Positions 30,752 to 36,004 of a stretch of 36,004 nucleotides of DNA are shown piece after piece (position 1 is the stretch's first letter; each line of letters opens with the position of its first letter). This stretch comes from a bacterium (GTDB lineage: Bacteria; Patescibacteriota; Minisyncoccia; UBA6257; GWB1-50-10): assembly GCA_021814545.1 (NCBI GenBank), contig JAKAID010000004.1, positions 1 through 36,004 on the forward strand. The letters are read 5' to 3'. A program made the translations under genes and the position numbers. The notes under the pieces are model-generated. The model had not been told where the DNA came from, made no database searches, and saw only the letters and a list, made by a program, of their open reading frames with translations.

Positions 30752-31783
30752 ATGCGAAATCAACTTACGGTATTACTGGTCGGCGAAGTGGACCGCGAGT
30801 TGCGCGGTGAGGTGTTCCAAGCTCAAAAAGTGAAGAGTGCGCCTCACTATTTCGAGATATCCATCCCCCACCCCGTCATCGTCGGCGAGGCGAAATCAAG
30901 CATCGACAATGTTCCCCTTGTCTTCTCCATTAAGGGGTATCCGCCTGATATTCTCCTTATTGAAAGTACGATCGAGGTAAAGGATGTATTCGACCATGAG
31001 GCCATGGCGAAACTCGAATCCGCTATCTACGAACAGAGCTACAAGATACTCGCTGAACACGGCGGGAGCCGCGATTATAGCGAAACGTACTCGGTCTTCA
31101 GCGTTTCCGGCTATGCGGGTGAACCGGAGCAATTCCTCAAGCACTCCCCCGCCATCGCCTCGCTCCTCAAGTCGGAGCGGCTTGAGCTCGACCCCAAGGA
31201 AATCGAGCACACGATGTCCGCACAAATAAAGTACGCAAAGAACGACCTCGCCATCATCGACTGGGACGGCGCCTTCCTCTTCGACCCTGAGGGCGACGTG
31301 CTCCCCACAATAGAACTCCTTACCCTCGCGAACCTTCAGCTCCTTCGCGCGCGCATCCTTGATCGCCAGCTCGATGACCGCTTGAAGCACGTGAGTAAGT
31401 TCATCAAGCGCCCCGAATCGAGCAAAAAACTTTTTAAAGTATTCGACAACGCTGAACTTTCGGAAGACCTCCGCCAGATCATCAAGATAATCATGTCCTC
31501 CATCGCGGAGGTGCAGCTCCTCGAGCGCGATATCAAGCTCATCGGCGACTGGTACTCCGCGCGCCTCTATGACCTTGCCACGCACAAATTCAAGGTGAAT
31601 GAGTGGCGCGCCACCATTAAGGAAAAACTCGACCTCCTTGAGGACGTGTACGGCATCGTAAAAGAGAACTTCTCTATTTCAGAAAAAGACCGCGCCGAAT
31701 GGATACAAATCATCGCCTGGTTTTTCCTCCAAATCGGCTGGTTCGTGCTCATTATTATCGAGTTCCTCTATTTCACGAAGTAG
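30752..31783 (+). CDS. Uncharacterised helical protein with C-terminal TM anchor (possibly DUF155/RMD1-like)
   Basis: Long helical region NLQLLRARILDRQLDDRLKHVSKFIKR...IAEVQLLERDIKLIGDWYSARLYDLATHKF and C-terminal TM IIAWFFLQIGWFVLIIIEFLYF; family assignment weak. Confidence 0.5.
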   Translation: MRNQLTVLLVGEVDRELRGEVFQAQKVKSAPHYFEISIPHPVIVGEAKSSIDNVPLVFSIKGYPPDILLIESTIEVKDVFDHEAMAKLESAIYEQSYKILAEHGGSRDYSETYSVFSVSGYAGEPEQFLKHSPAIASLLKSERLELDPKEIEHTMSAQIKYAKNDLAIIDWDGAFLFDPEGDVLPTIELLTLANLQLLRARILDRQLDDRLKHVSKFIKRPESSKKLFKVFDNAELSEDLRQIIKIIMSSIAEVQLLERDIKLIGDWYSARLYDLATHKFKVNEWRATIKEKLDLLEDVYGIVKENFSISEKDRAEWIQIIAWFFLQIGWFVLIIIEFLYFTK

Positions 31784-31810
31784 GGCTGAATTCGGACATG
31801 AGAAGGCACA

Positions 31811-31883
31811 GCCCGATACTCTTGGCGAGAGGGTAAGACTTGGGCGTCGCCCAGGAGACACCCCCGAGCCAAGAGTATCAGGC
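31811..31883. repeat. Structured palindromic intergenic repeat, copy 1 (complete)
   Basis: Outer stem GCCcGATACTCTTGGC / GCCAAGAGTATCaGGC (15/16 bp), internal GGGT/ACCC, apical CTTGGGC-GTC-GCCCAGG; 51/54 identical to 35951-36004. Confidence 0.85.
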
Positions 31884-31908
31884 GAGTATCCGCGTTGACG
31901 GAACTCGC
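31882..31908. other. Second hairpin adjoining repeat copy 1
   Basis: GCGAGT-a-TCCG-cgttga-CGGA-ACTCGC: 6 + 4 bp stem with a 1-nt bulge. Confidence 0.65.
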
Positions 31909-31914
31909 TTAACA

Positions 31915-32760
31915 TTATTTGAACGCCATCACGAAGCGCGCGGGGTCCACCGACACCGAATTCACTTTGAGCGAGAGGTGGAGGTGCGGCCCCGTTGCGT
32001 ATCCCGTGTGGCCAAGAAGCCCTATCACCTTCCCCCGCTCGACCACGTCGCCCTCCTTCACAAATTGTTTTTGAAGATGCATGTAGAGCGAGTAGATTCC
32101 CTCGCCATGGTCGATAATAATAACCTTCCCATACACGGTATCCGCGTACACGCGTTTTACCACGCCGCCGCTCATCGCGCCTACTGCCGCCCCCTCAGGA
32201 CCCGAGAGGTCAATTCCCCAGTGATGGATGATGGAATTGCCCGTTTTACGGGTCTCGCCGAACGTACTCCCGAATCTCGTGTTGTTCGCAAGCGGCAAGC
32301 CGAATGATTTATTGAAATACACCTTGTCGGTCCGGGCCTTCACCGCGGCATCAATGTCCACTTTCTGCTCGGCAAGTTTCGTGGTGAGCCCTTTTTCGGT
32401 GAGACCGAGCTCTTTCGGGATGCCGAGGTCGACTACCACGAATTTTTTTGCACGCACCGTTATCGCGCGAGTAAACACTGCCCCGTCCGCGAACGAAGCT
32501 GAGAATGGATACGAACCGGGCTTCTTCATTGCGGGTATCGGAATGACCGCCATTGATGCTTTCCGATAGGCAAAAAACTGGACCGCTGCGCCATCAAAGC
32601 TACCTGACACCGGCGCTGAATCGCCCGCGAGCGTTACCACAAGCGTATCGCCCTGATACGGTGTGGTATCGGAAATGGAGGCATTAATGCCCCGCGCGTG
32701 CGCCACAGGCGCTGCAAGCGCTATCGCCACCACAACAAATGCAAGCAAGCGTTTCATCAT
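31915..32760 (-). CDS. Secreted M23-family metallopeptidase (LytM-like)
   Basis: Start re-assigned to MMKRLLAFVVVAIALAAPVAHA (signal peptide); HWGIDLSGPEGAAVGAMSGGVVKRVYADTVYGKVIIIDHGEGIYSLYMHL; GYATGPHLHLSL (HxH). Confidence 0.92.
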   Translation of the reverse strand: MMKRLLAFVVVAIALAAPVAHARGINASISDTTPYQGDTLVVTLAGDSAPVSGSFDGAAVQFFAYRKASMAVIPIPAMKKPGSYPFSASFADGAVFTRAITVRAKKFVVVDLGIPKELGLTEKGLTTKLAEQKVDIDAAVKARTDKVYFNKSFGLPLANNTRFGSTFGETRKTGNSIIHHWGIDLSGPEGAAVGAMSGGVVKRVYADTVYGKVIIIDHGEGIYSLYMHLQKQFVKEGDVVERGKVIGLLGHTGYATGPHLHLSLKVNSVSVDPARFVMAFK

Positions 32761-32765
32761 ACATA

Positions 32766-32771
32766 AGTATA
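32766..32771 (-). promoter_or_regulatory. -10 TATACT 5 or 8 nt upstream of the M23 peptidase ATGATG start
   Basis: Minus strand TATACT-TATGT-ATGATG. Confidence 0.6.
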
Positions 32772-32804
32772 ACGAACGAGCGGGCCTCTTTCTTACAAAT
32801 AAAA

Positions 32805-32832
32805 AGGCCGCAATGTAATTGCATTGCGGCCT
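32805..32832 (-). terminator. Rho-independent terminator downstream of tgt
   Basis: Minus strand AGGCCGCAATG-CAATTA-CATTGCGGCCT then TTTTATTTG. Confidence 0.93.
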
Positions 32833-32840
32833 CACTTCGT

Positions 32841-35824: not shown

Positions 35825-35909
35825 AGCGTACAAGAAGGCCCCTCTCAACCCGCTCACGCCCCAGAGGGCTCCGCTTCGGTTTAGGTTTCGAGAAACCTTC
35901 TTGTGCACT
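35825..35909. other. Structured intergenic segment with long-range inverted repeat
   Basis: GTACAAGAAGG (35828-35838) pairs with CCTTCTTGTGC (35896-35906), 9 bp contiguous; internal CCCTCT/AGAGGG (35840-35845/35863-35868) and an alternative AGGTTTC/GAAACCT (35883-35889/35892-35898). Confidence 0.55.
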
Positions 35910-35950
35910 CCTTGCTGGTTTTCTTAATGCCTCATTCGAGCACAAGCGAA

Positions 35951-36004
35951 GCCCGACACTCTTGGCGAGAGGGTAAGACTTGGGCGTCGCCCCGGAGACA
36001 CCCT
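35951..36004. repeat. Structured palindromic intergenic repeat, copy 2 (truncated by window edge)
   Basis: 51/54 identical to 31811-31864. Confidence 0.85.

Follow-up and report, generated by a model that had tools for sequence, protein, structure and literature searches.

What is the long branched hairpin that lies between two convergent genes on contig JAKAID010000004.1 of a Patescibacteria genome (GCA_021814545.1), and why does it recur there? The window, which is the whole stretch of DNA analysed here, comprises 36,004 nucleotides, and the original prediction described this hairpin (copy 1) as a dispersed intergenic repeat, possibly REP/MITE-like or a repeated structured RNA. The stem-loop was found where it had been placed (Table 1), with an outer stem forming 15 of 16 pairs, an inner stem, and an apical hairpin in which CTTGGGC (31839–31845) pairs with GCCCAGG (31849–31855) around a GTC loop. 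The RNA fold of 31800–31920 had an energy of −59.1 kcal/mol, compared with −32.6 (sd 3.9) for dinucleotide shuffles (z −6.8, 0/200). The neighbours were indeed convergent, a 343-aa ORF and an M23 peptidase. The lack of a terminator-like U tract after the stem was borne out at copy 1, and the copy alignments likewise contained no U tract of the kind expected of an intrinsic terminator. A second hairpin (31881–31908), said to follow directly, was present in the fold but was not conserved in other copies, and thus it lies outside the element and is particular to this locus.

Table 1. Features of the palindromic element and its surroundings in the window.
Feature	Position	Strand	Remark
Flanking gene, 343 aa, no Pfam family	30752..31783	+	stop 27 bp left of element
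Palindromic element copy 1, whole unit common to other copies	31811..31883	+	model R1 match, E 3.6e-13
Outer stem, left arm	31811..31826	+	sequence free between copies, pairing kept
Inner stem P2, 5' side GGGT	31831..31834	+	covaries to GGCT, GAGT, AGAC and others in other copies
Near-invariant apical core TAAGACTTGGGCGTCGCCC(A/C)GGAG	31834..31857	+	AAGA internal loop, hairpin CTTGGGC-GTC-GCCC(A/C)GG, AG of 3' internal loop
Inner stem P2, 3' side ACCC	31860..31863	+	
Outer stem, right arm	31868..31883	+	
Flanking convergent gene, M23 peptidase	31915..32835	-	stop 31 bp right of element
Copy 2, left two thirds, cut by contig end	35950..36004	+	complete in contig C10 (127-bp contig overlap)

The window and contig C10 share 127 bases at their ends, and C10 carries copy 2 in full. 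This second copy, claimed to be identical at 51 of 54 positions, exists at 35950–36003, but the match is 52/54 (96%). The search for further copies in the window's own genome (561 kb), which had been proposed, gave 11 good matches, representing about 10 distinct copies after removal of the contig-overlap duplicate. Another short repeat (GGTTTAGGTTTCGAGAAACCTTCTTG-like) was observed beside several of these copies, including at 35879–35950 of the window.

When a single copy was used as the query, 14 of 60 related genomes matched, mostly over the 30–35-base core. A covariance model (R1) was built from 18 copies and leans to one core type. Of 43 genomes in the family, 22 were positive with this model, at 1–28 copies each, as were 12 of 199 in the order and 2 of 384 in a phylum-wide draw (strict filters); up to 32 copies occurred in another Paceibacteria-type genome. 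The sampled genomes were mostly metagenome bins. As the original prediction had anticipated, modelling the copies and searching related Patescibacteria revealed dispersed copies with covarying stems. A search of species genomes with the core pattern gave, among the matches listed, Kaiser-, Adler-, Jorgensen-, Wolfe-, Nomura-, Parcu-, Peregrini- and Saccharibacteria, and no real copy outside Patescibacteria was present among those matches. The named records with copies span Paceibacteria, Saccharibacteria, and Peregrinibacteria, and the distribution was patchy even between related genomes. Spread outside the phylum, suggested by a match in a Prevotellaceae bin, was rejected as this match had no stem and arose by chance; viral carriage was rejected as IMG/VR contained no exact core match. 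No family among the 4227 Rfam covariance models corresponded to the element, with only weak chance matches to microRNA models, and a literature search of limited range found no report joining Patescibacteria with palindromic elements. Copy 1 is one of a family of dispersed palindromic elements that had not been filed before.

The elements are ~75–110 bp long, with arms of 15–45 bp whose feet and termini vary freely between copies. The apical core, ~25 nt in length, is nearly invariant across the phylum and follows the pattern TAAGACTTGGGC, then GTC or NNNC, then GCCCCGGAG. Its tip is the hairpin CTTGGGC-loop-GCCCCGG, in which the loop is either GTC or NNNC, such as TAGC, AAGC, AAAC or GAGC. 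Below the tip there is a conserved, non-Watson-Crick internal loop with AAGA opposite AGAC or AGC, followed by an inner stem (P2) of 4–6 variable pairs, often a tandem GA/GA internal loop, and then the outer stem. Two-sided changes were found in 22 of 30 pairs of alignment A3, including 20/20 in the outer stem and 2/4 in P2, and 86.7% of the cells pair. The covariation score was 0.596, against 0.212 for shuffled alignments and no more than 0.198 when partners were slid. These changes strongly support a dispersed repeat with compensatory stem changes; they are far too abundant for copies conserved only as coding sequence, the outcome that had been named as fatal to the idea. Isolated mismatches in the stems were strand-biased (G.T 113 vs. 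A.C 50, p 9e-7; A.G 48 vs. C.T 4; purine-purine 65 vs. pyrimidine-pyrimidine 9), which indicated that the given strand is the one with conserved folding, although this asymmetry could be partly mutational in origin.

A total of 126 distinct copies were placed, using gene calls from our own simple gene finder. The prediction that the repeat is intergenic held for about two thirds of them (85), but the other 41 lie in frame inside protein-coding genes; a few of these ORFs (such as L008, L037, and L071) are doubtful, so the in-gene count is approximate. For 67 of the 85 copies outside ORFs, the nearest gene boundary was a 3' end. The copies were dispersed in both orientations and shared no gene neighbourhood, and between tandem genes the folding strand was antisense in 34 cases and sense in 18. 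No clean recent empty site was found: genomes G064 and G065 are 97–99% identical around two sites, where the intergenic stretches have been replaced. We therefore infer transposition from the distribution of the copies, not from an event seen directly. At one copy site of G065, its sister G064 carries a different palindrome (CCCAGCTAGTCCATGGACTGGCTGGG).

The copies inside genes leave the reading frame open and intact, adding about 25 amino acids to their hosts. These include the essential or housekeeping genes mnmA, ligA, uvrB, uvrC, tsaD, valS, gatB, and trmD, and Pfam confirmed MnmA, UvrC, TsaD, ValS, GatB, TrmD, Tgt, MurB, UvrB, YchF, TypA/BipA, a class V aminotransferase, Obg, a class I tRNA synthetase, and a mannosyltransferase. 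The MnmA insert lies between the ATGHY and DQSYF motifs, at a position for which the solved structures show, by alignment, a variable loop of ~10 residues; it is present or absent within one genus, a genus-mate (G003) being without it. The LigA insert aligns to a variable loop of a solved structure, and this loop is 8–9 aa long in insert-free congeners. Peptides predicted to be encoded by the inserts in LigA or MnmA include SEGPKTWASAPER and VSGATPK. Five of the six frames are readable, two open in sense and three in antisense, and one sense frame is closed by a TAA in the core. The sense to antisense ratio of the in-gene copies was 15:26, as compared with the 40% sense predicted from the open frames (p 0.75).

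Both loops also receive other sequences. At six loci of Saccharibacteria congeners, apparently unrelated in-frame palindromic inserts (e.g., CGGCCGGCCCGTCGCCACGGGCGGCCGGCG) occupy the same LigA loop, which is thus a hot spot common to several coding-palindrome families. At four further loci, LigA contains a core variant (TAAGCTTGGGCAAGCGCCCTTGAGCG and relatives) in both orientations, a sister subfamily missed by the core pattern. At four loci in genomes without the element there, the MnmA loop holds a different in-frame insert family (..SLRSSD..RRSA.GG..PRAA..), and at three loci in relatives it holds translated simple repeats such as LPITNYQL.

Although the arms of copies in the same genome vary almost without restriction, each copy pairs with itself. 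Over arm positions 16–30, the true combinations formed 9.1–14.7 pairs on average, against 5.5–9.4 when arms were swapped between copies of the same genome; the contrast was weak in G000 (10.2 vs. 9.4), where the copies are mostly alike. Most of the 28 copies in G604 had near-perfect stems of ~30–45 bp at 36% identity between copies. Across the family, some arms contained the stop codon of the neighbouring gene. In nearest-neighbour comparisons, 124 pairs had become a different Watson-Crick pair through changes on both sides, and single changes led to G.U in 59 cases, to A.C in 22, and to other mismatches in 18. In G603 and G604 there were 27 double changes, 14 of them of transversion type with no G.U route, vs. 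3 single changes, which suggests the copying of one arm from the other. Outside these two genomes, single changes to G.U outnumbered those to A.C (42 vs. 18), suggesting selection on structure. Both processes seem to act, and we infer the division between them; the continued pairing of old copies could reflect a host function.

Four other explanations were weighed against a selfish mobile palindrome. REPs moved by an IS200/IS605 RAYT (Y1) transposase are also short dispersed palindromes near gene 3' ends (PMC3733652), and such a relationship had been thought plausible if a RAYT gene were present. Neither the window's genome nor G065, with its at least 10 copies, contained Y1_Tnp (PF01797), which leaves the relationship unsupported; the reverse transcriptase family PF00078 was missing from the same two genomes and was rejected as a mobiliser. 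The window's genome is 94% complete, and a mobiliser gene may thus have been missed. The conserved part is the tip, not the foot, and the freely varying feet bear no conserved GTAG or CGTC tag. The termini differ between copies, with no conserved terminal inverted repeats as in a classical MITE. Nor did the clustered copies of G604 form transposon-like pairs around a transposase, since their identified neighbours were housekeeping genes (topoisomerase I, ParB, peptidyl-tRNA hydrolase, signal peptidase, dUTPase, and an AAA protein). An element of the REP/RAYT type is therefore most improbable. A functional structured RNA, maintained by the host in many copies, for instance as a 3'-UTR element for stability, processing or regulation, would agree with the RNA-like anatomy of conserved internal loops and covarying stems, with the preference for G.U-type intermediates, and with the position near 3' ends. 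Against this part of the original prediction, the strand with conserved folding is more often the untranscribed one, a third of the copies lie in coding genes in both orientations, the distribution is patchy even inside one genus, and there is neither a common gene neighbourhood nor an Rfam family; we regard it as unlikely.

The concerted evolution of the arms in G603 and G604, together with the near-perfect but mutually dissimilar arms of some G604 copies, would also be expected if the element were mainly a by-product at the DNA level, in which template switching during replication perpetuates a long perfect palindrome that has no dedicated mobility. That explanation accounts neither for the dispersal nor for a core invariant across the phylum, and correction of this kind would erase the conserved mismatched loops, which makes it quite improbable. 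Hairpin insertions inside essential genes would also fit an intron-like or ribosome-bypassed element, comparable to the mobile byp hairpins of yeast mitochondria, that is removed at the RNA or translation level. An open frame and a frame-compatible length would be needless in an insert that is removed, yet the in-gene copies keep both, and their sense to antisense ratio follows the number of open frames; we give this explanation hardly any credence.

Copy 1 probably belongs to a family, confined to this phylum, of small selfish palindromes that are non-autonomous and behave like the Rickettsia palindromic elements. Such an element would spread in folded single-stranded form, more likely as DNA than as RNA, since the usually untranscribed folding strand fits single-stranded DNA better. 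The tip may be recognised by a putative factor that is encoded by the host or has since been lost. Insertions would survive only where they are harmless, that is, after stops, in surface loops and in frame; selection against harmful insertions would explain the bias to 3' ends, the surface loops and the frames. The arms would be kept paired by structural selection and, in some genomes, by arm-to-arm copying through template switching as in quasipalindrome correction. More tentatively, and rather doubtfully, the transmissible unit might be only the ~36-nt core (P2 plus the tip), with long perfect arms remade at each insertion or replication as the flanking strand is copied by folding back. If so, the stem would consist of host sequence, with the element converting its target into a palindrome, a way of propagating that, to our knowledge, is undescribed for any mobile element. 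We know of no dedicated transposase for the Rickettsia palindromic elements.

According to PMC10969869, those elements (Ogata 2000/2002) are ~150 bp long. The likeness includes dispersed multi-copy palindromes, in-frame positions in unrelated housekeeping genes and small host-dependent genomes (PMC10969869). The Patescibacteria element is set apart by its phylum, its length of ~75–110 bp, its copy-specific arms and a conserved core alone, in place of the sequence that the Rickettsia elements have in common within a family. GTAG REPs are short hairpins recognised as single-stranded DNA by the RAYT transposase (PMC3733652); the present element has neither RAYT nor a GTAG foot, and its arms are unconserved. 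CGTC-tagged REPs are 20–40 bp long, with 8–9-bp stems, an unpaired CGTC tag at the foot and a CCA tail, and they resemble our element in lying near gene 3' ends and inside genes (repair and replication genes in their case) with no associated transposase (PMC3733652). Unlike them, the Patescibacteria element has much longer stems, no foot tag and a conserved tip. In integron attC sites, structure rather than stem sequence is conserved, and one folded strand is recognised through unpaired marks; the element is similar in conserving structure over stem sequence, but no R/L boxes or cassette array were noticed.

Several dispersed copies per genome and in-frame insertion into unrelated protein-coding genes, the features by which coding palindromes are known, were both found in this family. 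Thus the life style is a known one, whereas the anatomy, with a conserved tip, free arms and no foot tag, differs from that of the Rickettsia elements and the REPs. Protein-coding palindromes have been described as a peculiarity of Rickettsia, and a Rickettsia-like life style now appears in a distant and very large radiation of bacterial symbionts with tiny genomes. The presence of the family in core genes such as mnmA, ligA, uvrB, gatB, and valS means that annotated Patescibacteria proteins carry repeat-derived inserts. As the arms are free while the tip is fixed, the recognised part (the tip, on one strand) can be separated from the merely structural part, and the old question of how coding palindromes move becomes directly testable.
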